A stretch of 64,000 nucleotides of DNA. It comes from Paludibacterium paludis (lineage in GTDB: Bacteria > Pseudomonadota > Gammaproteobacteria > Burkholderiales > Chromobacteriaceae). Positions 44,289 through 64,000 of the stretch are shown piece by piece. Location: contig NZ_CP069161.1 of the NCBI RefSeq assembly GCF_018802605.1, positions 2,790,001-2,854,000 on the forward strand, given 5' to 3'. How positions within the stretch are numbered: position 1 is the stretch's first letter; every line of letters starts with the position of its first letter. The notes below the pieces were generated by a model. That model ran no database searches, was not told the origin of the DNA, and worked only from the letters and a program-made list of their open reading frames with translations. Made by a program: the position numbers and the translations under genes.

Positions 44289-45551
44289 ATGAGCCAGCCC
44301 CTCCCGGCCGACGACCTCCCGGCAGTCCGCCCCTACCGCGCGGTCCCTCCCGGCCTGCCCACCCAGACCGGACCTGCCGGCATCCGCTACGACTTCAACG
44401 ACGGCGCGCGTATTTTGCTGCCCCCCGGAGACTGGCATGTCGAACTGTCCGATGCCGACACGGGCAATCTGCTGTTCACCACCGACACCCGCGAAGGCTG
44501 GGTGCTCAGCGGCAAAAAATTCCTGGTCCGTTTCGTCTTGAGAGTCTGGGTGAAAGGCGAACCGTCGCCCTGCCTGGAACACGAGATGTCCCTGGAAAAC
44601 CGCCCGGTCAGGGTGCATTTTCCGGTGGGAACGCTGGGCGACATCCTGGCCTGGTTTCCCTACCTCGAACGCTTCCGCCAGCGCTACCGCGGCTCTGTCA
44701 CCTACACCATGGCCGAGGAAATCGCCACCTTGTTCAGCGACACCTACCCCGCTCTTGTCCATGTCCAGCCAGACGCTCCGGACGACACGCTGTACGCCAG
44801 CTACTGGCTGGGCCTGTTCTTCGATGATGAGGGGCATAGCCGCCAGCCCGTCGATTTCCGCATGGCGGGGCTTAACCGCACGGCGGGAAATATTCTCGGT
44901 GTCGACAACAGCGAAGCGAGGCCGAACCTGAAACTCGATGCGCCGCGCACCATCGCCGAACCGTATGTCTGCATCGCCGTGCAAGCTTCGACCCAATGCA
45001 AGAAGTGGAACAATCCGGCAGGATGGAACGATGTGGTCCGCCATCTCAAGGAAAAAGGCTACCGTGTGCTGTGCATCGACAAGGATGCCGTGCACGGACA
45101 GACACCGGCCTGGACGCATCTTCCGCGCGAGGCAGAGGATTTCACCGGCGAGCGTCCGCTCGCCGAAAGGGCCGCGCTGTTGCAACACGCCTCGGCGTTC
45201 GTCGGTGTCTCGAGCGGCCTGGCCTGGCTGGCCTGGGCATGCCGGATCCCGACCGTGCTGATCAGCGGCTTCACCTTGCCGCAGAACGAATTTCATACCC
45301 CGTACAGGGTATTCAATGTCCACACCTGCAACGGCTGCTGGAACGATGTTCGGGTGCGCTTTGACCATCACGACTTTTTCTGGTGTCCGCATCACAAAGG
45401 CACTCCGCGCCAGTACGAATGCTCGGCGCTGATCACGTCGCTTCAGGTCATCAAACAGCTCGACCTGGCCCTGGAAGAGTCGCGCTGGAGGCAGGATGCC
45501 GCGCATGCCCTGCCGGCGTCGCTCCGCCTTGCCTGCGAGACGCAACCATGA
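44289..45551 (+). CDS. autotransporter O-heptosyltransferase (TibC/AAH-like)
   Basis: 420 residues from ATG 44289 (MSQPLPADDLPAV). N-terminal beta domain (YDFNDGARILLPPGDWHVEL), then a GT-B fold related to heptosyltransferases (VHFPVGTLGDILAWFPYLERFR, IAVQASTQCKKWNNPAGWNDVV, SSGLAWLAWACRIPTVLISGF). The C-terminal Cys set CNGCW, FFWCPHH and QYECS matches the iron-binding motif of TibC-type enzymes. It adds heptose from ADP-heptose to Ser residues of the autotransporter repeats in the cytoplasm. Its stop overlaps the autotransporter start by 4 bases (ATGA). Confidence 0.92.
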   Translation: MSQPLPADDLPAVRPYRAVPPGLPTQTGPAGIRYDFNDGARILLPPGDWHVELSDADTGNLLFTTDTREGWVLSGKKFLVRFVLRVWVKGEPSPCLEHEMSLENRPVRVHFPVGTLGDILAWFPYLERFRQRYRGSVTYTMAEEIATLFSDTYPALVHVQPDAPDDTLYASYWLGLFFDDEGHSRQPVDFRMAGLNRTAGNILGVDNSEARPNLKLDAPRTIAEPYVCIAVQASTQCKKWNNPAGWNDVVRHLKEKGYRVLCIDKDAVHGQTPAWTHLPREAEDFTGERPLAERAALLQHASAFVGVSSGLAWLAWACRIPTVLISGFTLPQNEFHTPYRVFNVHTCNGCWNDVRVRFDHHDFFWCPHHKGTPRQYECSALITSLQVIKQLDLALEESRWRQDAAHALPASLRLACETQP

Positions 45552-48500
45552 AAACATCCTCGCCCAACCGGATTTATCGCCTGATCTGGAGCGCCAGCCG
45601 CCGGATGTGGATCGCCGTATCCGAACTGGCGCCAGGAAGGAGCAAGACGGGGCGCGCCCCAGGCGCGTGGACAATCGCGGCGCTGGCGGCGGCGACGCTC
45701 GGTTCTCCCGCGCACGCCTTCACCGATCCGGTCGGCAGCGGCATGGTCACCCAAGGGGAGACCGTTACGTCGGGCACCCAGAATGTGACGTCGGGCGGCG
45801 TGACATCCACTACGACGGTGGGCTCCGCCGGCTCGCAGATCGTATCGTCCGGCGGGCTGGCGCTCAGCACCACGGTCAACAACGGCGGTCAATCGACCGT
45901 CTCCGGCGGTGGCGTCGCTTCCGCCACGACCCTCAACGGCAACGGCACGCAAACCGTGTCGTCCGGCGGTCTGGCGGTCAGCACCACGGTCAACAATACC
46001 GGCCAGTCGATCGTCTCCGGCGGTGGCGTCGCTTCCGCCACGACCCTCAACGGCAACGGCACGCAAACCGTGTCGTCCGGCGGTCTGGTTGTCAGTACCA
46101 CAGTCAATAACAGTGGCAGCCTGAACATTTCCAGCGGCGGCCTGGCGAGCAATGCGACCATCAACAACCACGGCACGCTGACCGTCTTGTCGGGCGGCAG
46201 CGCGGCCAGCGCCACCCTCAACGCCGGCGGTGCAATGAAAATCTCCGCTGGCGGCGCAAGCAGCGACACCACCATACAGAGCGGCGGGGCACTGACCGTA
46301 TCGTCCGGAGGACAGGCGGCGGGGGTCGTCCAGTCGGCCGGCGGCGCGCTGATCGCCGACACGGGCGCGACCGTGTCCGGCACCAACGCGTCCGGCAGTT
46401 TCTCGATCGCCGGCAATGTCGCCTCCAACGTCCTTCTGGAAAACAGCGGCGCTCTCACGGTGTCCTCCGGCGGCACGGCGACCTCCACCACCATCACCAG
46501 CGGCGGACAGTTGATCGTCTCCTCCGGCGGCACCGCCACCAGCGTCAACCAGAGCAGCGGCGGCGCGCTGATCACCAACACGAGCGCGACCGTGTCCGGC
46601 ACCAACGCGTCCGGCAGTTTCTCGATCGCCGGTAATGTCGCCTCCAACGTCCTCCTGGAAAACAACGGCGCCCTCACCGTGTCCTCCGGTGGCACAGCGA
46701 CCTCCACGACGGTCGCCATCAGCGGACAACTGCTCGTCTCGTCGGGCGGCGTCACGACATCCACGACCCTTTCCAGCGGCGGGCGATTGATCGTGTCTTC
46801 GGGCGGCACCGCCACCGACGTCAACCAGATCAGTGGCGGCGCGCTGATCGCCAACACGAGCGCGACCGTGTCCGGCACCAACGCGTCCGGCAGCTTCTCG
46901 ATCGCCGGCAATGTCGCCTCCAACGTCCTCCTGGAAAACAGCGGCGCCCTCACCGTGTCCTCCGGTGGCACAGCGACCTCCACCACCATCGCCAACGGCG
47001 GACGGTTGATCGTGTCTTCGGGCGGCACCGCCACCAGCGTCAACCAGACCAGCGGCGGCGCGCTGGTCACCGACACCGGAGCGGTCGTCTCGGGTACCAA
47101 CGCGCGCGGAGGTTTTTCGATAAGCGGTGGATCCACGACCAACATTCTTCTCGAAGGCGGCGGCACGCTCTCGGTGAAAACCGGCGGCGTGGCATCCGCT
47201 ACCCTCGTCTCCGCGAACGGTACCCAGAACATCGACGGGGGGATCGCGTCCGGTACGGTTGTCAGCGGGAACTCCAGCTCCGAAGTGGTGAACAATGGCA
47301 CGACCTACCAGACGTCGGTCCTGCAAGGCGCGCGGCAACACGTTTACGGCGGGACCACCATCAGCACCCTCGTGCAGGGCAGCGGTGTCCAGTACGTCTA
47401 TGGCGGAGGAGTGACAAGCGGCTCCCTCCTGATCAGCGGCGGGTACCAGTCACTGCATGGCGGTACCTCCTACGATGCCGTGGCGGCCAGCGGAGGCAAT
47501 CTGTTTACTCAGACTGGCACGTCGTTCAACGCGGTGGTCAGCAGCGGCGGCACACAATACCTTCAAGCGGGAACGGCCAACAACACGACGGTGCACAGCG
47601 GCGGTCTCATCACTATCGAGGGCCGCAGCATCGCCAACTCGCTCGTCATGTCGAGCGGTGGAGGACTGGTCACCTACACGATTGCGACGGTTTCCGGCAC
47701 CAACGCGTTGGGCAATTTTGTCATCAGCAACAATGTGGCCAGCAACGTCCTTCTGGAGAACCGCGGGCAATTGGGGGTGCTGTCGGGCGGGCTGGCCCTC
47801 TCCACCACGGTGGGCAGCGGCGGCACATTGTCCGTGCTGGCCGACGGCGAGGACAGGTACGCCAGTGTCTTTTCCGGAGGGGTGCAGGTCGTTGCTGGGC
47901 AAAGCCTCAGCGCCAATATCGGTAGCGGCGGCACGCAAAACGTGCATGCAGGAGGAACAACCACATCAGCGACCATCGCGGCAGGCGGTGCGCAGAATAT
48001 CTCCTCCGGCGGAGTGGCTCGCGCCGCGCAGGTCAGCGGCGGCACCCAGACCGTCCTCGCCGGCGGTCTTGACAGCGGAGGCACCATCCTCGCCGGCGGC
48101 GTCCAGACCGTCAGTTCCGGCGGCGTCGCCAGCGCCACCACGATGGCCGCGGGCGGCAGCCAGATCCTCTCGTCCGGCGGGGTGGCCAGCGCCGCGCAGG
48201 TCAGCGGCGGCACCCAGACCGTCCTCGCCGGCGGTCTTGACAGCGGAGGCACCATCCTCGCCGGCGGCGTCCAGACCGTCAGTTCCGGCGGCGTCGCCAG
48301 CGCCACCACGATGGCCGCGGGCGGCAGCCAGATCCTCTCGTCCGGCGGGGTGGCCAGCGCCGCGATCATCAGCGGCGGCGGCCAGACCGTCCTCGCCGGC
48401 GGTCTTGACAGCGGAGGTACCATCCTCGCCGGCGGCACCCAGACCGTCAGTTCCGGCGGCGTCGCCAGCGCCACCACGATGGCCGCGGGCGGCAGCCAGA

Positions 48501-51500
48501 TCCTCTCGTCCGGCGGGGTGGCCAGCGCCGCGATCATCAGCGGCGGCGGCCAGACCGTCCTCGCCGGCGGTCTTGACAGCGGAGGCACCATCCTCGCCGG
48601 CGGCACCCAGACCGTCAGTTCCGGCGGCGTCGCCAGCGCCACCACGATGGCCGCGGGCGGCAGCCAGATCCTCTCGTCCGGCGGAGTGGCCAGCGCCGCG
48701 ATCATCAGCGGCGGCGGCCAGACCGTCCTCGCCGGCGGTCTTGACAGCGGAGGTACCATCCTCGCCGGCGGCACCCAGACCGTCAGTTCCGGCGGCGTCG
48801 CCAGCGCCACCACGATGGCCGCGGGCGGCAGCCAGATCCTCTCGTCCGGCGGGGTGGCCAGCGCCGCGATCATCAGCGGCGGCGGCCAGACCGTCCTCGC
48901 CGGCGGTCTTGACAGCGGAGGCACCATCCTCGCCGGCGGCACCCAGACCGTCAGTTCCGGCGGCGTCGCCAGCGCCACCACGATGGCCGCGGGCGGCAGC
49001 CAGATCCTCTCGTCCGGCGGAGTGGCCAGCGCCGCGATCATCAGCGGCGGCGGCCAGACCGTCCTCGCCGGCGGTCTTGACAGCGGAGGCACCATCCTCG
49101 CCGGCGGCACCCAGACCGTCAGCTCCGGCGGGGTGGCTTCCGCTTCGGTGATCTCCTCCGGCGGGAGGCAAACCGTTCTCGCCGGGGGCATCGACCAGTC
49201 CGCATCCATCCTGTCGGGTGCGGCCCAATATGTATCGGGAGGCCAGAGCTTCAGCGCCACCATCGGCAATGGCGCGACCCAGACGGTGCTGGCAGGAGGA
49301 TCGGCCACGTCGGCCGCCCTGGCCGCGGGCGGCAGCCAAGTCCTCTCTTCCGGCGGGGTGGCTTCCGCCTCGGTGATTTCCTCCGGCGGAATGCAAGCCG
49401 TTCTCGCCGGAGGCGTGGATAGCGGCACCAGCATCCTGTCCGGAGGGATGCAAACCGTCGCGGGGGGATCCACGATCGCGGCGGAGATTTTCAGCGGAGG
49501 GAATCAGCAGATTCAGGATGGAGGTGTCGCCACCTCGGCCCGGATACACGCGAGCGGCACACAGTCGATCCTGGCCGGCGGCCACGCCATGTCGTCATTG
49601 ATCGACAGCGGCGGCGGGCAAATCGTTTCGTCCGGCGGCGCGGCGCGCGCGACCCACATTCTGTCGGGCGGTGAACAAACCGTGCTGGCAGGAGCGACCG
49701 TGCAAGCTTCGCTGGTCGATAGCGGTGGGCGGCAAAACCTTCAGGGAGGCCGGGTGAGCGGTGCCACCATCGATTCGGGCGGCCTGCAGGTGCTGTCGTC
49801 GGGCAGCATCGCCAGCGCCACATCCGTCAGCGGCGGCGGGCAGGTCATTCTGTCCGGCGCGCAGGCGCTGGCCAGCGTGATCGCGGCCGGCGGCATCCAG
49901 ACCGTATCGTCGGGCGCGCTCGCCAGCGCGTCGCTCCTGAGCGCCGGCGGGGTGACCTCCGTGCTGGCCGGTGGCGTCGCGCGCGACACGGAAGTCAACG
50001 ACGGCGCTCGGCTGACCGTCGATCAGGACGGGCTGCTGCAAGGCGTCACCCGCATCAACGGCACAGCGACCCTCGACGGCACGATGCCGATCCGCAATCA
50101 GGGCGAGGTGCGCGTCACCCCTGACGCCGACCGCGTCTGGGGCACCGTGCTCGGAGACAGTGGCGGATTGACCTTGCAGGGCAGCCATACCCTGACGCTC
50201 GCCGCCGCGCAGACCTACAGTGGAATTACCTCGGTCGAAGGCGGCACGCTCAAGGCCGGCGTGGCCGACGCCATCGCCGCCAGTCAGCTGCTGCGCATCG
50301 GCGACGGGGCGCGCTTCGAGCTGGGCGGTTTCGACCAGCATGTGGCGCGGCTGCAGGGCGGCGGCACGCTGGCGCTGGGCGCCAATACCCTGACCCTGAA
50401 CGGTGCCGGCGGCTCGGCCGTGTTCACCGGCACCGTGGAGGGCTCGGGCGAGTTGGTCAAGGACGGCGCCTATACCCAGGTGCTGGGCGGCGCGCTGACC
50501 TATACGGGTATCACGCGCATCAATGCCGGCACGCTGACCCTGGACGGCGGCGCGGGAGGCGGCCGTCTCAACGGCGATGTGATCGGCCGGCCGGGCAGCC
50601 GGCTGGTCCTGCAGAACGGCGCGACGCTGACCGGCGCCATCGATCCGCTGGATGTCAGCGTGCTGGCCGGCTCGACCTGGACGGTGACCGGCGACTCGAC
50701 GATCGACACCCTGGAGTTGGCCGGCAACGTGACCTACCAAGTGCCCCGGACGGTGTCGATCAAGACCCTGCGCGTCACGAACCTGGTCGGCGAAAATGGC
50801 GTGTTGACGGTCAACGCCCAGTTGGGCGGCAGCAGCTCCAGCATCGGTCACCTCATCATCGACGGCGGACGGGCGACGGGGAGCACGCGGCTGGCGGTGC
50901 GCAATCTCGGCGGCCTGGGCGGCTTGACGCAGGGCGACGGCATCCGGGTCATTCAGTCCGTCAACGGCGCCAGCACCGCCCAGTGGCAACTCTCCCTGCT
51001 CCAGCCGGTGCTGGCCGGCGCCTACGACTACCGGCTAAAGCGCGGTGCCGCGCAGCCGGACGACTGGTATCTGTCGTCCGATAGCGGGGGCAAACCGAGC
51101 TACCGCTCCGAGGTTTCGCTGGACATGACGGTGCCGGCGGTGGCGCTCAGGTACGGCGCGATGGTGGCCGGTTCCTGGCGGGAACGGCGCGGTGACGCGG
51201 ACGAACCGTACTGGGGCCGGGCGATGGCCCAGACGGTGCGTCACGACGGCGCGCGGGACGGTATCGCCGGCGGCGCGGCGAAGTTCCGCGCCGATCTGTA
51301 CGGAGCCCAGGCCGGCGCCGATCTGTACCGGCGCAGCGGGGCGGGCGACGCCGGCGACCGGGCCGGCGTCTACGCCGCCATCGGCCGGAGCACCGCCCAT
51401 GTCACCCACTCCGATGGCGGGCCGGCCGGCAAGGCGACACTGGATGGCTATGCGCTGGGCGGCTACTGGACCCGGCGCGGTGCGGCGGGCTGGTATCTGG

Positions 51501-52039
51501 ACGGAGTGCTGCAGGCGAACTGGTCGGAGGTGACCACCCGTTCGTCCAACAACCTGACCCTGCGTACCCACGGGCTGAGCTGGCTCGGCTCGCTGGAGGC
51601 CGGGTACGGGTTCCGTACCGGCGCGGTGACGATCGAACCGCAGGTGCAGTTGGCCTACCAGCGGCTCAGGCTCGCGGATGCCGGCGACGAGGCGGCGGCC
51701 ATTCAGTTCGGCCGCATCGAAAGCATCCCTCTGCGCGTCGGCGTGCGGATCGCCCGGCCACTGCAGCGCTCCTCGGCGGGCCCCTTGACCGTCTGGTTCC
51801 AACCAAGCGTGATGCACGAGTTCAAGGCGACGCAGCAAACCGGCTTTGTCGCGCAAAACGGCTCGCGCACGGCCCTTGGCTCCGACCTGGCGGGCTCGAG
51901 CCTGATCATGGCGGCGGGGGTGGGGGGGTGGGCGAGCAAAACGCTCAGGCTCGATGTGAAGGCCGACTACAAGACCTCGCTGTCGGGCAAGGCGTTCCAC
52001 GGCTTTGGGTTGACGTTCGCCGTCAATGCCCGGTTCTGA
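45548..52039 (+). CDS. AIDA-type self-associating autotransporter adhesin with strand-loop-strand repeats
   Basis: 2163 residues from ATG 45548. Residues 1-57 are an extended signal peptide (ESPR start NRIYRLIWSASRRMWIAVSE, cleavage AHA-F). Residues about 58-1500 are a beta-helix of SGG-x-A-x-x-T-x-V-x-x-GG-x-Q strand-loop-strand repeats, the known acceptors for O-heptose. Next comes a pertactin-like stretch (GGTLALGANTLTLNGAGGS, SGITSVEGGTLKAG). The last 265 or so residues are the outer-membrane beta-barrel (YWGRAMAQTVRHDG to VNARF, C-terminal Phe). No Cys is seen in the passenger. The upstream heptosyltransferase is translationally coupled, so the pair forms a glycosylated adhesin unit. Confidence 0.93.
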   Translation: MKTSSPNRIYRLIWSASRRMWIAVSELAPGRSKTGRAPGAWTIAALAAATLGSPAHAFTDPVGSGMVTQGETVTSGTQNVTSGGVTSTTTVGSAGSQIVSSGGLALSTTVNNGGQSTVSGGGVASATTLNGNGTQTVSSGGLAVSTTVNNTGQSIVSGGGVASATTLNGNGTQTVSSGGLVVSTTVNNSGSLNISSGGLASNATINNHGTLTVLSGGSAASATLNAGGAMKISAGGASSDTTIQSGGALTVSSGGQAAGVVQSAGGALIADTGATVSGTNASGSFSIAGNVASNVLLENSGALTVSSGGTATSTTITSGGQLIVSSGGTATSVNQSSGGALITNTSATVSGTNASGSFSIAGNVASNVLLENNGALTVSSGGTATSTTVAISGQLLVSSGGVTTSTTLSSGGRLIVSSGGTATDVNQISGGALIANTSATVSGTNASGSFSIAGNVASNVLLENSGALTVSSGGTATSTTIANGGRLIVSSGGTATSVNQTSGGALVTDTGAVVSGTNARGGFSISGGSTTNILLEGGGTLSVKTGGVASATLVSANGTQNIDGGIASGTVVSGNSSSEVVNNGTTYQTSVLQGARQHVYGGTTISTLVQGSGVQYVYGGGVTSGSLLISGGYQSLHGGTSYDAVAASGGNLFTQTGTSFNAVVSSGGTQYLQAGTANNTTVHSGGLITIEGRSIANSLVMSSGGGLVTYTIATVSGTNALGNFVISNNVASNVLLENRGQLGVLSGGLALSTTVGSGGTLSVLADGEDRYASVFSGGVQVVAGQSLSANIGSGGTQNVHAGGTTTSATIAAGGAQNISSGGVARAAQVSGGTQTVLAGGLDSGGTILAGGVQTVSSGGVASATTMAAGGSQILSSGGVASAAQVSGGTQTVLAGGLDSGGTILAGGVQTVSSGGVASATTMAAGGSQILSSGGVASAAIISGGGQTVLAGGLDSGGTILAGGTQTVSSGGVASATTMAAGGSQILSSGGVASAAIISGGGQTVLAGGLDSGGTILAGGTQTVSSGGVASATTMAAGGSQILSSGGVASAAIISGGGQTVLAGGLDSGGTILAGGTQTVSSGGVASATTMAAGGSQILSSGGVASAAIISGGGQTVLAGGLDSGGTILAGGTQTVSSGGVASATTMAAGGSQILSSGGVASAAIISGGGQTVLAGGLDSGGTILAGGTQTVSSGGVASASVISSGGRQTVLAGGIDQSASILSGAAQYVSGGQSFSATIGNGATQTVLAGGSATSAALAAGGSQVLSSGGVASASVISSGGMQAVLAGGVDSGTSILSGGMQTVAGGSTIAAEIFSGGNQQIQDGGVATSARIHASGTQSILAGGHAMSSLIDSGGGQIVSSGGAARATHILSGGEQTVLAGATVQASLVDSGGRQNLQGGRVSGATIDSGGLQVLSSGSIASATSVSGGGQVILSGAQALASVIAAGGIQTVSSGALASASLLSAGGVTSVLAGGVARDTEVNDGARLTVDQDGLLQGVTRINGTATLDGTMPIRNQGEVRVTPDADRVWGTVLGDSGGLTLQGSHTLTLAAAQTYSGITSVEGGTLKAGVADAIAASQLLRIGDGARFELGGFDQHVARLQGGGTLALGANTLTLNGAGGSAVFTGTVEGSGELVKDGAYTQVLGGALTYTGITRINAGTLTLDGGAGGGRLNGDVIGRPGSRLVLQNGATLTGAIDPLDVSVLAGSTWTVTGDSTIDTLELAGNVTYQVPRTVSIKTLRVTNLVGENGVLTVNAQLGGSSSSIGHLIIDGGRATGSTRLAVRNLGGLGGLTQGDGIRVIQSVNGASTAQWQLSLLQPVLAGAYDYRLKRGAAQPDDWYLSSDSGGKPSYRSEVSLDMTVPAVALRYGAMVAGSWRERRGDADEPYWGRAMAQTVRHDGARDGIAGGAAKFRADLYGAQAGADLYRRSGAGDAGDRAGVYAAIGRSTAHVTHSDGGPAGKATLDGYALGGYWTRRGAAGWYLDGVLQANWSEVTTRSSNNLTLRTHGLSWLGSLEAGYGFRTGAVTIEPQVQLAYQRLRLADAGDEAAAIQFGRIESIPLRVGVRIARPLQRSSAGPLTVWFQPSVMHEFKATQQTGFVAQNGSRTALGSDLAGSSLIMAAGVGGWASKTLRLDVKADYKTSLSGKAFHGFGLTFAVNARF
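46330..47120 (+). repeat. 219-bp imperfect repeats in the autotransporter
   Basis: The block GGALI..T.ATVSGTNASGS followed by FSIAGNVASNVLLEN and LTVSSGGTATSTT recurs at about 46339, 46558, 46834 and 47053: 73-residue (219-bp) steps, the middle one lengthened by one 19-residue (57-bp) unit. The fourth copy is more diverged. Coordinates are approximate. Confidence 0.8.
48023..49138 (+). repeat. seven tandem 168-bp repeats in the autotransporter
   Basis: A 56-residue unit (containing VLAGGLDSGGTILAGG, VSSGGVASATTMAAGG and SQILSSGGVAS) occurs seven times at an exact 168-bp spacing; the LDSGG marker falls at about 48071 and every 168 bases to 49079. The last copy diverges after 36 residues. Copies 1-2 carry AAQVSGGT, copies 3-7 AAIISGGG. 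Copies 3 and 5 share GGAGGTACC, copies 4 and 6 share GGAGGCACC plus GGCGGAGTGG, so a 336-bp pair seems to have been duplicated. Confidence 0.9.
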
Positions 52040-53772: not shown

Positions 53773-55332
53773 ATGTCCCGATTCTTTCTTCTCCCGGCGC
53801 TGGGTGCCGCCGCCCTGGTCCTGGCAAGCCCGGACGCCTGGTCCGCCGCCTCATGCACCGACTGGACCGCGGGTCAGATCTACAACTCCGGCGATTACGC
53901 CCGTTACAACGGCAAGACCTGGCGCTCGCGCTGGTGGAACCAGAACGCGCAACCCGGTTCGGACGCCTGGGGTCCCTGGGAGGAGCGTCCGGCCAGCGAA
54001 TGCACGGGCGGTGGCGATCCTGGCGGCGGCAAAGTACCGCCGGAGCCCAAACCGACTGTCGGACGACACGTTGGATCCTATTTCACCCAATGGGGCATTT
54101 ATGATCGCAAATACACCCTGAGAAAACTCGTCGACGCGGGCAGCGACGCCAAGCTGACTTTCCTGAATTACGCTTTCGGAAATGTATACGCCGATGGAAA
54201 ATGTGGGATGGTCACCCGCGCCGAAAACGGCAACGGCGATGGCGGCGATGCCTGGGCCGATTACCAGCGCAGCTTCCCTGCCGCAGAATCCGTCGACGGC
54301 GCCGCCGATCAATGGAGCGATACGCTGCGCGGCAATTTCGGCCAGTTGCGCAAACTCAAATTCAAGAATCCGCAGTTGAAAGTCCTGATCTCGCTGGGTG
54401 GCTGGACCTGGTCGAAAAATTTCGGCAAATTCGCCGCCAGCGAGGCGTCGCGCCAGACACTGGTAGCGTCCTGCATCGACCTCTATATCAAGGGCAACCT
54501 GCCCAAAGGCGAGGATGCCGGCGGGCCGGGAGCCGCGCTTGGCGTATTCGACGGCTTTGACATCGACTGGGAATACCCGGGTGGCGGCGGACTGCCGACC
54601 AACACGGTGGACCCCAACGACCGCCAGAACTTCACGCTCCTGCTCGCCGAGTTCCGTCGCCAGCTTGACGCGCTCTCCGCGCAGAACAAGCGGCGCTACT
54701 ACCTGACGGTCGCCATCGGCTCCGGGGTCGACAAGATCCGCAATACGGAACCCGCCAAGTATTCGTCCTACCTTGACTGGGTCAACGTGATGACCTACGA
54801 CTTTCACGGTGGCTGGGACGCGCAGGGCCCGACCAATTTCCATGCCAACCTCTACCGCGACCCGGCCGCGCCCGTCACGGGCGACCAGGTGTACTACAAC
54901 GTCGATGACTCCGTGAAAACCCTGCTGGCCGGCGGCATTCCCGCCGCCAAGATCAACATCGGAATCCCCTTCTACGGACGCGGCTGGACCGGCGTCGCCC
55001 CGGGCAAGGACGGCAACGGACTCTACCAGCGCGCCACCGGCGCGGCGCCCGGCACCTACGAGGCCGGATACAACGACTACAAGGTTCTGGTCACCCGCAA
55101 CGCGACCCGTTACGTCCATCCGGTCACGCGGCAATTGTGGACCTACGACGGCAAGGAGTTCTGGAGCTATGACGATCCGGCCACGATACGCGTGAAACTC
55201 GATTACGTGCGCAGCAAACAGCTGGGCGGCGTATTCAGTTGGTCGCTCGACGGTGACGATGCGCGGGGCACGCTGCTGTCCGTCACCAGCGAAGTAAGAA
55301 ACGACGCGGCGGCGAAACAGCGCAAACGCTAA
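53773..55332 (+). CDS. secreted GH18 chitinase with chitin-binding module
   Basis: 519 residues; signal peptide MSRFFLLPALGAAALVLAS, cleavage near WSA-A. Residues about 26-72 are a CBM5/12 module (CTDWTAGQIYNSGDYARYNGKTW, WWNQNAQPGSDAWGPW). After a Gly/Pro linker comes the GH18 barrel with YFTQWGIYDRKY, LISLGGWTWSKNF and the catalytic DGFDIDWE, where D260, D263, D265 and E267 are all present. It cuts chitin by substrate-assisted catalysis. Its own terminator follows. Confidence 0.93.
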   Translation: MSRFFLLPALGAAALVLASPDAWSAASCTDWTAGQIYNSGDYARYNGKTWRSRWWNQNAQPGSDAWGPWEERPASECTGGGDPGGGKVPPEPKPTVGRHVGSYFTQWGIYDRKYTLRKLVDAGSDAKLTFLNYAFGNVYADGKCGMVTRAENGNGDGGDAWADYQRSFPAAESVDGAADQWSDTLRGNFGQLRKLKFKNPQLKVLISLGGWTWSKNFGKFAASEASRQTLVASCIDLYIKGNLPKGEDAGGPGAALGVFDGFDIDWEYPGGGGLPTNTVDPNDRQNFTLLLAEFRRQLDALSAQNKRRYYLTVAIGSGVDKIRNTEPAKYSSYLDWVNVMTYDFHGGWDAQGPTNFHANLYRDPAAPVTGDQVYYNVDDSVKTLLAGGIPAAKINIGIPFYGRGWTGVAPGKDGNGLYQRATGAAPGTYEAGYNDYKVLVTRNATRYVHPVTRQLWTYDGKEFWSYDDPATIRVKLDYVRSKQLGGVFSWSLDGDDARGTLLSVTSEVRNDAAAKQRKR

Positions 55333-56528: not shown

Positions 56529-58469
56529 TCAACGTGGTGCGCGGCGACATTTTTGGGACAATGATTCCAATCGCCATCCGGTCAGCGCCACGCCAAGCAG
56601 ACGTCCACGGCCAAGATACGCGACAAGCCTGTCGAACAGAGCATACTTGTCCGGGGAATAGGGGTACCAGTTGACCTCGATCTTGCGGCTCTGGCGATCG
56701 ATCAGCAACGCCTTGCTGCGGGTATAGGCCAGCAACCCTTCGGCACCCCGCACCCGGCCTGTGCCGCTTTGCTTGACTCCACCGAACGGCAATGCCGGAT
56801 TTCCTTCGGTGAGCATCACATTGTTGATGCTCACCGCGCCGCACACGAGTTTCTCGGCGACGCGTCGGGCCCGGAGCGGGTCTTTCGACCAGACGCTCGC
56901 CGACAACCCGAACGGCGAACGGTTGCAGCGCATCACAATCTCGTCCTCGCTCGCGAACGCCAGCACAGGCAACACCGGCCCGAAAGTTTCCTCTTGCATC
57001 ACCAGCATGGAATCATCCACGCCGGCCAGTACCGTCGGCGCGTAAAGCCGCCGCGCGCGGTCGATCACAGCGCCTCCGGCAAGCACCGTCGCCCCCCGCG
57101 CCACCGCGTCGGCCACGTGCCGCTCGACAGTCGCCAGCTGCGCGTCGGTGGTCAGGGCGCCCACATCGGCGAATTCGCCGCACGCCACCGTCAGCGCCCT
57201 GACGGACGCCACCAGCCGCTCGACAAACCGCTCATGAAGCGACTGATGCACGTACAGGCATTCCACCGAACTGCACGACTGGCCGGTATTGGTCATGCTT
57301 CCCCATACCGCGCCGGCGACGGTGCGCTCCAGATCCACATCGTCGAACACGATCATCGGATCCTTGCCGCCAAGCTCGACACTGGCGGGGATCAGCAGCG
57401 ACGCGGCCTGCTCCAGCACCTTCCTGCCTGTGGCGACGCTGCCGGTGAAAGCGATCTTGTCGGGCCGCGCATCGATCAACTGCCGGGCGGTTTCACCGGA
57501 GCCCTCGATGATCACCACGGACCGCTCAAGAAGCGGATGCGCGCGCAACATGGCCGTGAGCACCGCGGACATCGGCGTGAATTCGGACGGCTTGTAAATC
57601 ACCGCGTTGCCCGCGGCGAACGCGAACAGGATCTGGGTCAACGCGGTATGCACGGGATAATTCCAGGGCGCGATCACCAGCACCACGCCCAGGGGCTCGT
57701 GGCGCAGGCGCGAAGCCTTGCCAAGCAGCATCAGCGGCGTCGGCACCTTGCTTTCGGCGAGGATGGCGGGCGCCCGCTTCTCCAGAAAAAACAGGCAATC
57801 GATGACGCCCAGCACCTCCGACACCAGGGCATCGGTCGGCGCCTTGCCGTTTTCCCGGACGATCTCGTCGACAATCCACTGGCGGCGATCGACCAGCCAG
57901 CGGCGCACCGCCGCGACGGCGGCAAGCCTCGCCTTCACCGGCGTGCCCGCCAGCCAAGGCGCCGCGGCGCGCGCGCGGTCCATGGCCATTTGACACACCT
58001 CCTCGGTCGTACCGGTCAGCCGGCATTCGGCGACATGTTCCATCATCCATTCCTCCCGAAGGCCCGCCGCGGGTTCGACGCGCGCGTCATAGCCGATGGC
58101 GGACCAGACACCGGCGGCGCCGCGGGCCGGCTGAGCGGGCCCCGAGTAATACAGGCTGTACACCAGCCCGCGCAGTCCGGTATCGAGGCGGCGCAGGGGT
58201 GTTCCCAGCACATCCGGGAACGCCTCCGCCCGTCCGGCAAGCCCAAAGAGCGCGCGGATCAGCCACGCCGGCGCGAAACGCAGAATGCGCAGCAAGCCAC
58301 GCAGGCTCGCGACATCCTCGGCGCTCGCCACGGCCAGCGCCTCGTCGACCAGCACCGCGCAGCCGGTGTCGGCGAACGCCGGCAATCCCTCCTCCCCCGG
58401 CAGCAGGGCGCCGCCGACCCGGATCAACCCGTTCATCTCGGTTCTGCTCAGAAATCGCGAATCGTTCAT
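56529..58469 (-). CDS. aldehyde dehydrogenase fused to an N-terminal GMC-helper-like module
   Basis: 646 residues from ATG 58469, overlapping the GMC stop by 4 bases. Residues about 155-600 form a standard ALDH: VIAPWNYPVHTAL, FTGSVATGRKVLEQA, catalytic Glu in VELGGKDPMIVFDD and Cys in NTGQSCSSVECLYVH. The first 150 residues are extra: MNDSRFLSRTEMNGLIR, FPDVLGTPLRRLDTGLRG, LVYSLYYSGP, VWSAIGYDAR. This pattern, ending in a Trp-x-x-Ile-Gly-Tyr block, resembles the helper region of GMC partners and the N-terminus of long-chain alcohol oxidases. Normal ALDHs are about 480 residues. The fusion may hold the alcohol- and aldehyde-oxidising enzymes together. Confidence 0.85.
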   Translation of the reverse strand: MNDSRFLSRTEMNGLIRVGGALLPGEEGLPAFADTGCAVLVDEALAVASAEDVASLRGLLRILRFAPAWLIRALFGLAGRAEAFPDVLGTPLRRLDTGLRGLVYSLYYSGPAQPARGAAGVWSAIGYDARVEPAAGLREEWMMEHVAECRLTGTTEEVCQMAMDRARAAAPWLAGTPVKARLAAVAAVRRWLVDRRQWIVDEIVRENGKAPTDALVSEVLGVIDCLFFLEKRAPAILAESKVPTPLMLLGKASRLRHEPLGVVLVIAPWNYPVHTALTQILFAFAAGNAVIYKPSEFTPMSAVLTAMLRAHPLLERSVVIIEGSGETARQLIDARPDKIAFTGSVATGRKVLEQAASLLIPASVELGGKDPMIVFDDVDLERTVAGAVWGSMTNTGQSCSSVECLYVHQSLHERFVERLVASVRALTVACGEFADVGALTTDAQLATVERHVADAVARGATVLAGGAVIDRARRLYAPTVLAGVDDSMLVMQEETFGPVLPVLAFASEDEIVMRCNRSPFGLSASVWSKDPLRARRVAEKLVCGAVSINNVMLTEGNPALPFGGVKQSGTGRVRGAEGLLAYTRSKALLIDRQSRKIEVNWYPYSPDKYALFDRLVAYLGRGRLLGVALTGWRLESLSQKCRRAPR

Positions 58470-59869
58470 GCCGCCGCCTCCCGGACCGGTTCGAGGGCCG
58501 CCTGTCCCAGCTCCATGGCGGCGGCCCGCCCGGACAATGCCATGATGGACAGCGACGGGTTGATGCCCGGCGCCGCCGGAAAACACGCCGAATCCGCGAT
58601 CAGCAGATTGGGGTGGTCGTGCACCCGGTGATCCGGCGCCGTCACCGAACGGGCGCCGTCGACGCCCAGCGCGCAACCGCCCATCAGGTGCAGGCCGATC
58701 CGCAGCGGCGCCTGGTGCAGCTTTTTCGCGCCCACCGCGCCGAACAGTTCCCGCACCACGGCGAGCCCCGCATCGCGCCGCGCGCGGTCGGTGTCGCCAA
58801 GGGTTTTCTCCACCTCAAGCCGGCCGCCGGCAAGCCGCACACGGCCCGGCGTTTCGTCGCGGATCGCCACCTCGATGCTCGCCATGCGGCGGTAGTCGCG
58901 CATCCAGCGCGCCGCCTCCTTGCCGATGCCCGGCGCCAGCAGACTGATCGCGACCGGACCGGCGAAAATGTTCTCCAGTTTGAACCCCGCCTGACGAAAA
59001 CGCGGCTCGTCCGACTTGAGCGACTGCAAAGCGCCTTTGTGGGCATCCACGATTTCATCGAACAGGGCCAGCGTCATCCATTGCGGGTGACAGAAAAACC
59101 CCTCCCCCAGCGCCGGCAGGCGGGATTTCAGCCCGGAACGCAACAAAATGCCGGTCGTGCCGAGCGCTCCCGCGGCAAGCACGACTTTTCTGGCTCGCCA
59201 GACTTCCGGCCGTCCGGCCAGGTAGCCGGTCACCGTCACGCCATGGCGGTCGTGCGACAGCGCCTCGACCTGACATCCGCAACGGATCGTCAGCCCTTGG
59301 CGGCAAGCCTGCGGCAAAAACGTCATCAGCGTGCTTTGCTTCGATCCGCGCCGGCACCCGCCAAGGCACACCACGCAGTCGTTCCCGCCGCAATCGCTCT
59401 GCCCCCGCCGCAGCGGCGCGCAGCCATAACCGCACCGCTCGAAGGCTTCCGCATACAGCGCGGCATTGCGGTTCCAGCCTTCGCGGCCCAGCGTTTCCAG
59501 CGCGAGACGGTTTTCCGTGCGCCGATACCAGGGCTCGAACGCCTCGAGGCTCAAACCGGCGATGCCGCTGGCCTGACGCCACAGGGAAAACGCCAATTCG
59601 TCAAACCGGTCGAGCAGGCATTGATTGACGATGCTGCCGCCCCCCAGCGCCTTGCCGCGCAGCAACACCGTGCGGGCATCGCGGCTCAGCTCCATGCCGC
59701 CCCCCCAGAACAGCCGACTGTTGGCCGCCAGTTCGTTATCGGGAAACGCCGGCGACGGCCGCGCCTCGCCCGCCTCCAGCATCAGGCAATCCGCGCCGGC
59801 CCGTGTCAGGGCGTCGGCCATCACCGCGCCGGACGGCCCGGAGCCGACAATGATGTAATCGTGAACCAT
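58466..59869 (-). CDS. GMC-family flavin-dependent oxidoreductase
   Basis: 467 residues. FAD-binding start DYIIVGSGPSGAVMADAL (GxGxxG), second FAD block LLRGKALGGGSIVNQCL, and active-site His in GLHLMGGCALGVD with Asn in APGINPSLSIMALSG. It contains CNGCR-like GGNDCVVCLGGCRRGSKQS, the Cys-rich loop typical of the long-chain-alcohol and cholesterol oxidase branch. It oxidises an alcohol to an aldehyde or ketone. It lies between the PLP enzyme and the ALDH on one transcript. Confidence 0.88.
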   Translation of the reverse strand: MVHDYIIVGSGPSGAVMADALTRAGADCLMLEAGEARPSPAFPDNELAANSRLFWGGGMELSRDARTVLLRGKALGGGSIVNQCLLDRFDELAFSLWRQASGIAGLSLEAFEPWYRRTENRLALETLGREGWNRNAALYAEAFERCGYGCAPLRRGQSDCGGNDCVVCLGGCRRGSKQSTLMTFLPQACRQGLTIRCGCQVEALSHDRHGVTVTGYLAGRPEVWRARKVVLAAGALGTTGILLRSGLKSRLPALGEGFFCHPQWMTLALFDEIVDAHKGALQSLKSDEPRFRQAGFKLENIFAGPVAISLLAPGIGKEAARWMRDYRRMASIEVAIRDETPGRVRLAGGRLEVEKTLGDTDRARRDAGLAVVRELFGAVGAKKLHQAPLRIGLHLMGGCALGVDGARSVTAPDHRVHDHPNLLIADSACFPAAPGINPSLSIMALSGRAAAMELGQAALEPVREAAA

Positions 59870-59907: not shown

Positions 59908-61122
59908 TTACATGAACTGCATCCCCTCTCCACGATAGGTCGGCACGCGGCCGACCACCTTGCCGGCCTGAATCAGCACCAGCTCATTGAACCGCTCGCA
60001 CAACTCGCCCGCCTTGGCGTGCCGGAAAAACACCTTGTCACCCGGCTCCAGCCCCCCGACATCGCCGCTCAACGGCGTCTGCACCTCGCCCGCGCCCTCC
60101 AGCGGCAACAGCGCCAGCCCTTCCGGCAGCCAGGGTCGCGGCAACCGATCGGGGGCGGACGGCCCGGAGGCCACATACCCGCCCCCGCCGCAGGTGACAA
60201 AACCCGGCCCCGGAATGCGCGCCACCTCCAGCACGAAACCGGCGGCCGGCCGCCAGACCGCCTCCCGGTACGCATCGAAAAGATGCGGTGCGAACAGTCC
60301 CGAGCCCGCTCCGATTTCGGTCACGCACGGGTCGGCCGCCGTCGAAGCGAGACTGCCCGAACCGCCGCCGTTGACCAGCGTGACCGGCGCGCCGGCCTCC
60401 CGCAGCGCGGCCACCACCCGCGCGCGCCGCTCCCGCGCCAGGCTTCGCGACAGACGTTTGCAAAATCTCACCAGGGCATTGCGCGCGGGACGGCCCGGCT
60501 GCGCATCGCCGACACCGGCCACCTGCGCCTCGTACCCCATGACCCCTTCCAGGCGCACATGCCGCAAACGGGCGATCTCCCGGTACAGGGCCAGCGCCCG
60601 CGTTTCGTCCGACAGCGGCGAGCGGCGCACGCCGGCATGCAGTCCCGGCAACGATAAAGACATATCGATGTCCATGCACAACGGCAAAATCACGCCGGCG
60701 TCGCGGGCGATCCGGTCGGCGAGCTTCGCCTGAGCAAGATGGTCGACCATCAGCCGGATCGTCGCCCCCCGCGCCACCGCCTCGGCCACCCGCCGCAGGC
60801 TGTCCTGCCGCAGACTCGGATAGGCCACCAGAAAATCGTCAAGCCCCTTTCCGAACAGGAACACCGCCTCATCCGGATGAAAACACAGCACACCCTTCAT
60901 GCCGTGTTGCGCGCAAAGCACACGCTCCAGCAATGCCCGGCAGCGCACCGACTTGCCGGCCACCCGGATCGGTTTGCCCGACGTCCGCTCGGCCATGGCG
61001 CGGGCATTGGCGTCGAAGACATCCAGATCGACGAATGCCAGAGGCAACGGACTCGCACCCAATGCTTCCGCATATGTTTCGTACAATGACCTGCTTGTCA
61101 TATCAGCGGCGATTCCGGCCAT
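59908..61122 (-). CDS. fold-III PLP enzyme (D-threonine aldolase/DSD1 family)
   Basis: 404 residues from ATG 61122; starts at 61152 (GTG), 61134 and 61101 are also possible. N-terminal alanine-racemase-like barrel: LAFVDLDVFDANARAM, PLP Lys in IRVAGKSVRC, TLVNGGGSGSL, then the C-terminal beta domain with FFRHAKAGELCERFNEL, the likely metal-binding segment of DSD1/D-threonine aldolases. Such enzymes split beta-hydroxy amino acids to glycine and an aldehyde or deaminate D-Ser. It heads the minus-strand unit PLP enzyme-GMC-ALDH, so an aldehyde product could pass to the ALDH; the substrate is unknown. Confidence 0.82.
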   Translation of the reverse strand: MAGIAADMTSRSLYETYAEALGASPLPLAFVDLDVFDANARAMAERTSGKPIRVAGKSVRCRALLERVLCAQHGMKGVLCFHPDEAVFLFGKGLDDFLVAYPSLRQDSLRRVAEAVARGATIRLMVDHLAQAKLADRIARDAGVILPLCMDIDMSLSLPGLHAGVRRSPLSDETRALALYREIARLRHVRLEGVMGYEAQVAGVGDAQPGRPARNALVRFCKRLSRSLARERRARVVAALREAGAPVTLVNGGGSGSLASTAADPCVTEIGAGSGLFAPHLFDAYREAVWRPAAGFVLEVARIPGPGFVTCGGGGYVASGPSAPDRLPRPWLPEGLALLPLEGAGEVQTPLSGDVGGLEPGDKVFFRHAKAGELCERFNELVLIQAGKVVGRVPTYRGEGMQFM

Positions 61123-61155
61123 CCCCTCCCCCATTGTCTTCCGACGCGCCACAAA

Positions 61156-62638: not shown

Positions 62639-62656
62639 CCCGTGAAAGGATTCCCC

Positions 62657-64000
62657 ATGACAACCCGATTCGCTGCGGGCGCCGCCATGGCGCTCGTCTG
62701 GCCCGCCCTGTCCTGCGCCGTGACCTTCGAGACGGATGCGCTGCGCGGCAGCGTGGACTCCACGATCACGCTGGGATTCGCCGCGCGCACCGACGCGCGC
62801 GATTGCCGTTTCATCGGTCAGGACAATGGCGGCTGCGGCCCCGATCCCGAACTGAATTTCCTGAACGGCGACGACGGCGACCGCAACTACAACAGGGGAG
62901 ACCTGTTTTCCCTGTACCTCAAGGGGCTGCACGAACTGTCCGTCAAAACCCTGGACGGCGCGAGCGGCGCGCTGGTGCGGGCAAGCTGGCTGCACGACTG
63001 GCGCGCGGGCAAGACCCGGGCGATTCCCCTGGCCTCCGATGCGCGGCGGCAGATCGTGACCCGCACCGAACTGCTCGATGCCTTCGTGTTCCACCAGACC
63101 GAGCTTGCCGGTCATCGCGTCCAGTGGCGCCTGGGCAACCAGGTCGTCAGCTGGGGCGAGGATCTGTTCATTCTGGGCGGAGTGAACACCATCAACGCCA
63201 TCGACTCCCAGCGCGCGCACCTGCCCGGCACCCCGGTCAAGGAAATCCTGCGGCCGGCGCCGATGCTGGCGCTCAACGGAGACCTGGGCGCCGGCTGGTC
63301 CGCCGAAGCCTACTGGCAATTCAAATGGAACAGCTGGCGCATGGATCCGGCCGGCAGCTACTTTTCCACGATGGACACCGTGGGCAAGGGCGCCCGGGGG
63401 ATCTATTTCGGCAACAGTCTGAGCGCCCAGCTGGGTCCCGATATCGGCGCGGGACTCGCCACGCCCGACATTCCGGGCGGCAAGCCATTCTTTCCCTATG
63501 CCGGGGAAAACCGTCCCGGCGCGCGCGACCGGCAATACGGCATGGCGTTGCGTTACAAGCCCGATGACGCGGGCAGCGAACTGGCCTTCTACTACCTGCG
63601 CTACAACGACAAGATGCCGCAGGTCGGTTTCCGGCAATTCGGCAAGGACCCGGTGTTCGGCCTGCCGCAAGGCGAGATTTTCATGAACTGGGGCACCCGG
63701 CGCGAACTGTTCGGCCTGAGCGGTCACACCTCGCTCGGCGACCTGGCCCTCGGCAGCGAGCTGTCGTACCGGCCGCGCGACTCGGTGGGCATCGTGGCGC
63801 CCGTCGATCCGCTGGGGCGTGCCAGTTTCACGAGCCCGGGCTACGCGACCGAGCGCAAATGGCAGTGGAACGTGAGCGCGGTCTATTCGGCGACACCGTC
63901 CAACAGTCTGTCGGGACTCGTGTCCTTGCTGGGAGCCTCGCAGGTCGATCTGTCGGCCGAGGCGGCCGTGGTCCACTACCCCGGCCTCAATCCGGCGCCT
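62657..64000 (+). CDS. DUF1302 outer-membrane protein, C-terminus outside the window
   Basis: 448 codons visible from ATG 62657 (AAAGGA 6 bases upstream) to the window end, still open. Signal peptide MTTRFAAGAAMALVWPALSC; then VTFETDALRGSVDSTITLGFAART and repeated amphipathic strands (YGMALRYKPDDAGSELAFYY, LGDLALGSELSYRPRD) that fit a beta-barrel. Complete family members are about 550-650 residues. It probably passes hydrophobic substrates with the DUF1329 protein. Confidence 0.88.
   Translation, partial: MTTRFAAGAAMALVWPALSCAVTFETDALRGSVDSTITLGFAARTDARDCRFIGQDNGGCGPDPELNFLNGDDGDRNYNRGDLFSLYLKGLHELSVKTLDGASGALVRASWLHDWRAGKTRAIPLASDARRQIVTRTELLDAFVFHQTELAGHRVQWRLGNQVVSWGEDLFILGGVNTINAIDSQRAHLPGTPVKEILRPAPMLALNGDLGAGWSAEAYWQFKWNSWRMDPAGSYFSTMDTVGKGARGIYFGNSLSAQLGPDIGAGLATPDIPGGKPFFPYAGENRPGARDRQYGMALRYKPDDAGSELAFYYLRYNDKMPQVGFRQFGKDPVFGLPQGEIFMNWGTRRELFGLSGHTSLGDLALGSELSYRPRDSVGIVAPVDPLGRASFTSPGYATERKWQWNVSAVYSATPSNSLSGLVSLLGASQVDLSAEAAVVHYPGLNPAP

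Follow-up and report, generated by a model that had tools for sequence, protein, structure and literature searches.

A predicted GMC-oxidoreductase small subunit fused to an aldehyde dehydrogenase in a three-gene operon of Paludibacterium paludis

The window analysed here, a stretch of 64,000 nucleotides from Paludibacterium paludis (contig NZ_CP069161.1, positions 2,790,001 to 2,854,000), carries an operon of three genes on the reverse strand. A gene for an aldolase-like protein comes first and is followed after 38 nt by a gene for a GMC oxidoreductase and then by a gene for an aldehyde dehydrogenase (ALDH) with an additional N-terminal module. The features of the operon are given below in window coordinates.

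56529..58469, reverse strand: fused module-ALDH gene, 646 amino acids
58065..58469, reverse strand: N-terminal module of the ALDH, predicted to be GMC small-subunit-like, residues 1-135
56709..58019, reverse strand: ALDH catalytic domain, residues 151-587 (PF00171, E 3.7e-117), with Cys399, Glu365 and Asn270
58466..58469, reverse strand: ATGA shared by the GMC stop codon and the ALDH start codon
58466..59869, reverse strand: GMC oxidoreductase, 467 amino acids (PF00732, E 4.5e-33; PF05199, E 2.5e-14)
59354..59392, reverse strand: Cys160/165/168/172 motif within the GMC protein, in partial alignment to the fructose dehydrogenase large subunit
59908..61152, reverse strand: D-threonine-aldolase-like pyridoxal phosphate (PLP) enzyme, putatively of SphD type, 414 amino acids (PF01168, E 6.3e-11), with Lys67

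The listed open reading frame of the ALDH (56529..58676, reverse strand) exceeds the gene, and the ATG at 58469 is the likely start. Translation of the GMC and ALDH genes is likely to be coupled through the ATGA overlap.

The match to the Pfam ALDH profile starts at residue 151 (profile position 23), and the N-terminal part of about 130 residues stands outside the ALDH fold. An initial annotation, made from the sequence alone, had described the ALDH as about 150 residues too long; the surplus is real but amounts to about 115-135 residues. The motifs quoted there, LYY and VWSAIGYD, are found at residues 106-108 and 121-128 of the translation. A Pfam search gave no match for residues 1-135. The following part is a full catalytic domain of the aldehyde dehydrogenase superfamily, in which Cys399, Glu365 and Asn270, presumably catalytic as in other members of the family, are invariant across 11 aligned fused proteins.

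The neighbouring GMC protein shows both GMC_N and GMC_C domains above the cut-off. As the initial annotation had stated, it lacks the extra part, since its flavin adenine dinucleotide (FAD)-binding fold begins at residue 3-4. The active-site His394 and Asn437, the latter at the His/Asn position, are invariant across 16 aligned rows; the GMC protein of locus L141, which is outside this alignment, differs at both positions. The solved structures closest to the GMC profile are FAD-glucose dehydrogenase (E 2e-24) and the large subunit of fructose dehydrogenase (E 1.1e-22), and the C-x3-C end of the Cys motif aligns with a Cys stretch of the latter.

Residues 1-150 of the window ALDH, used as sole query, recovered only the protein itself, and a search with five aligned modules (profile A1) recovered four stand-alone proteins. 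Genome searches with A1 were counted at E ≤ 0.01. Within the order of P. paludis matches occurred in 10 of 399 genomes; seven lie below 1e-27 and are all module-ALDH fusions beside a GMC gene, and the three weak ones (E 0.0013-0.0076), with neither GMC nor ALDH in the stretch, were excluded from the counts. The order of a Nocardioides genome gave two matches in 293 genomes, both in source genomes of the profile, and a phylum-wide sample gave one in 349, the genome of the window. A match was present in 11 of 144 genomes from the phylum of a Bacteriovoracaceae genome, five of them with a fusion and six with a shorter frame that carries the module. The fused architecture is shared by L009/L148 and L028, and in Enemella (L029) and Nocardioides (L030) a separate module gene lies between the GMC and ALDH genes and overlaps the ALDH start. 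The GMC gene of Enemella (L029, 4573-5978) is split over two overlapping frames, by a frameshift or a sequencing error; its module and ALDH frames are open.

Altogether 20 module loci were compared, including the window and the near copies L142 and L143; some of the stretches end at contig ends. A GMC gene adjoins the module in all 20. The module is fused to an ALDH in 12 loci and is a separate gene in eight, with an adjacent ALDH gene in three of these (L029, L030, L137) and none in the stretch in the other five (L136, L138-L141). A protein profile search built from the 11 fused rows returned 342 proteins at E ≤ 1e-150, the window protein included, and 54 of the best 120 carry the module (again counting the window protein; incomplete in P0041 and P0052). 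As the module also has six invariant columns among 22 aligned rows, it is not a product of chance. ALDH relatives from Solimonas (L033, L065) have neither module nor GMC gene in the stretch, and no module was found in their genomes at E ≤ 0.01.

The gluconate 2-dehydrogenase subunit 3 family (PF13618), with which the initial annotation proposed a comparison, is related to the module by profile-profile alignment. Comparison by hhalign with two sets of PF13618 members gave a probability of 82% and scores of 38.7 and 40.7; the maxima of the shuffled controls were 19.4 and 19.1, none of 100 shuffles reached the real score in either set, and reversed controls were low. A third set scored 36.8, without shuffles. 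By Pfam search, PF13618 was matched by three of the 22 rows (best E 0.0058) and not by the window row, and with 14.9 bits the module stays below the curated cut-off of 23.4 bits. The module rows had no match in NCBIfam, the module profile found a single chance-level match among PDB sequences (E 1.6), and the PF13618 protein L164 had no credible PDB relative by sequence. An AlphaFold2 model of the module from 56 rows (predicted local distance difference test score, pLDDT, 88.2) matched 9jqa chain B modestly, as the top VIA row; this fructose dehydrogenase chain was assigned as the small subunit by its length (137) and the entry, not by a sequence match. An earlier model from seven rows (pLDDT 76.6) gave no useful structural match. 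Taken together, the module is a remote relative of the PF13618 family, and the case for a small subunit is strong.

The initial annotation had also linked the extra part to the N-terminal extensions of long-chain alcohol oxidases, but homology to these was not established. In Hydrogenedentota, a 282-aa protein with a membrane-like N-terminus, encoded upstream of a distant GMC gene (pair at L147, 4786-7081), has a weakly module-like C-terminus (E about 4e-5); this protein may connect the module with proteins of the long-chain alcohol oxidase type. Its other gene order and weak score kept L147 from being counted among the 20 loci. At the GMC_N loci of six genomes all module matches were worse than E 0.4, the known ones and L147 excepted.

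The history of the fusion was followed in a quick ALDH tree of 76 rows, of which 37 are fused, 36 stand alone and three form the outgroup. Besides the window protein, the listed search hits supplied 26 fused rows (from 53) and 28 rows without module (from 66), and the loci supplied 10 fused rows (from 11) and eight unfused ones. On this tree the fusion state must have changed at least 8 times, with five changes forced by starred branches, versus 24.8 in shuffles; a module gene may lie near rows counted as alone, as is known for three, mis-started genes may be among them, and the outgroup branches are long. The window fusion falls into a starred set of 10 rows, eight of them unfused, apart from the large fused group. 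Its nearest rows are P0096 and P0085, followed by the fused P0072, and the top identity is 57% (P0112). A small-subunit gene thus seems to have been joined to the ALDH gene, with repeated fusion or fission. The domain swap suggested earlier is revised accordingly, as the sequence data do not show a domain taken from the neighbouring GMC protein.

FAD-dependent glucose and fructose dehydrogenase complexes consist of a GMC catalytic subunit, a small subunit and a cytochrome c. The window GMC profile finds its best PDB matches among their catalytic subunits, the Cys stretch of the GMC protein is partly aligned, and the module likewise appears to be a small helical partner of the PF13618 kind. They differ in that the putative small subunit of the window is fused to an ALDH. 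No CxxCH motif, as in cytochrome c, was found among seven window genes checked. Many of the PF13618 members fetched show twin-arginine (Tat) starts, whereas no Tat-like start is present on the window GMC protein or module; among the 22 module rows a Tat-like pattern occurs once (L029), inside the domain itself and hence not as a signal. The unit would therefore be placed in the cytosol.

Since the module belongs with GMC enzymes, an ALDH tethered to the GMC protein is the natural reading, and very probably the module acts as a GMC subunit that brings the ALDH along. That a GMC system for alcohol oxidation is covalently linked to the enzyme of the following step, and that this link was made or unmade repeatedly in evolution, also predicts a real complex. 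The view of the N-terminal part as a common extension of ALDHs, unrelated to GMC enzymes, deserves next to no credence: Pfam leaves it unnamed, but its homologues are separate genes beside GMC genes, five of them without ALDH in the stretch, and this, together with the PF13618 relation, bears out the GMC connection made in the initial annotation. The same five loci (L136, L138-L141) would suit a module that does no more than help the GMC protein to fold or mature, with the fusion merely setting stoichiometry and no channelling between the enzymes. We regard this as improbable, because fusion or fission recurs and the fusions found by the module profile alone all carry one ALDH subfamily.

A possible substrate is indicated by the third gene. 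Its product has the alanine-racemase fold of PF01168, D-threonine aldolases are its top matches in the PDB (E 2.2e-10), and Lys67 at the PLP position is conserved over 13 aligned rows. By this family match and the PDB relatives it is assigned as a putative SphD-type PLP aldolase. Such a gene lies in the stretch of 13 of the 20 module loci. A relative from Burkholderia arboris (53.9% identity) adjoins a gene of the D-arabinono-1,4-lactone oxidase (ALO) type, so that an aldolase of this kind seems to have alternative oxidizing partners, one of them the GMC protein with the ALDH.

Clustering of neighbouring genes revealed one conserved gene common to the stretches L133, L137, L142, L143, L144 and L148. 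Pfam identified it as a neutral ceramidase in L142, L133 and L137, and PF04734 matches at all six loci, so that six of the 20 stretches include a ceramidase. Genes of FadL type and TetR genes are also common to several members of the L142 group. In the order sample, ceramidase was present in 6 of 7 module-positive versus 1 of 392 module-negative genomes, the latter by a partial match (one-sided Fisher test, 9e-12), and by genus in 3 of 4 with module versus 1 of 155 without (2e-5). A second sample gave 7 of 11 versus 13 of 133 (8e-5). These p-values are inflated by the relatedness of the genomes, and the counts assume that repeated samples contain the same genomes (same sizes, and same handles where listed).

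The aldolase-like gene and the ceramidase association together point to sphingoid bases as substrate, which we consider slightly better than an even bet. In P. aeruginosa, the sphBCD genes encode an oxidase and the alanine-racemase/threonine-aldolase-like SphD, and it has been proposed that sphingosine is oxidized at C1 and then cleaved to glycine and an aldehyde (PMC3900636, PMC5150637, PMC11893366). Both systems combine a flavin oxidase with a threonine-aldolase-like PLP enzyme for the same proposed chemistry, and the regulon includes the neutral ceramidase CerN (PMC3900636, PMC5150637), just as the module gene set often occurs with a ceramidase. SphC is described there as periplasmic, as resembling ALO and as thought to be served by cytochrome c; unlike it, the window oxidase is a GMC protein with a linked ALDH and without visible export signal.

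On this basis the operon may encode a cytosolic oxidation unit, in which the partner of the GMC protein would be a small subunit as in gluconate and fructose dehydrogenases, itself a covalent part of the ALDH. The GMC protein would convert a primary alcohol to the aldehyde, and the docked ALDH would oxidize this reactive product to the acid before it is lost. For a sphingoid base, oxidation of the C1 hydroxyl would lead via a 2-amino-3-hydroxy aldehyde to a 2-amino-3-hydroxy acid, from which the aldolase-like enzyme would release glycine and a long-chain (en)al, possibly oxidized by the same ALDH. Conversion of C1 to a carboxyl group swaps the C1/C3 priority at C2 of (2S,3R)-sphingosine, so on stereochemical grounds the product would be 2R and thus D. 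An acid of D configuration belongs to the substrate class of D-threonine aldolases, and the third enzyme would therefore cleave the acid. The ALDH would be required because the acid level must be reached from the aldehyde; cleavage of the aldehyde-level intermediate would yield aminoacetaldehyde and not glycine. The route would hence add the oxidation of an aldehyde, a step that the SphC/SphD proposal lacks, and it suggests a tethered path for the breakdown of sphingosine-like lipids in some bacteria. Tethering makes good sense for a reactive alpha-amino aldehyde; the whole reading, in which the GMC small subunit is recurrently fused to the ALDH so as to confine this intermediate, remains tentative and falls somewhat short of even chances. 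Neither the module-ALDH architecture nor the pathway was found in the literature searched, which covers few subscription papers.

Alternatively, the tethered pair might act on other long-chain or bulky alcohols, with aldolase and ceramidase belonging to a wider lipid-scavenging set and not to one pathway. Weighing against sphingoid bases, the genome of the window itself has no ceramidase (PF04734) match in the genome search, and seven of the 20 loci lack the aldolase in the stretch, although contig ends truncate some of the stretches. Genes of the kind found divergently beside the operon also serve other apolar substrates, as described for monoterpenes (PMC6394551) and Tween 20 (PMC10866462):

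61205..62638, forward strand: DUF1329 gene, divergent (PF07044, E 1.3e-122)
62642..64000, forward strand: DUF1302 gene, extending beyond the window end (PF06980, E 2.3e-99)

An MMPL/RND gene follows the DUF1302 gene beyond the window end (genome stretch L195), and the set resembles the transport systems for apolar substrates in these two sources. Still, the aldolase-like gene lies in the same operon only 38 nt upstream and recurs at most loci, and the ceramidase association appears in two separate samples. We therefore judge other alcohols unlikely, though not negligible, and favour by a modest degree the tethered unit of GMC protein, module-ALDH and aldolase acting on sphingoid bases.

None of five same-genus genomes (G001-G005) gave a module-covering match at E ≤ 1e-60, in a search that did not use profile A1; gain or loss of the operon within the genus may explain this. 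The GC content over 57-61 kb is 0.66-0.70. Directly downstream of the ALDH gene and on the same strand lies a gene of the DNA alkylation repair family (PF08713, 55718-56479, reverse strand), followed at 53773-55332 (forward strand) by a gene for a GH18 chitinase with a CBM5/12 module. Farther away, at 45383-52039 (forward strand), an open reading frame of 2218 amino acids contains many repeated SSGG units and looks autotransporter-like by eye. Outside the window, at about 72130 in window coordinates (L195, 11631-12608), the same genome has a match to the Cas1 family (PF01867, E 5.9e-13).
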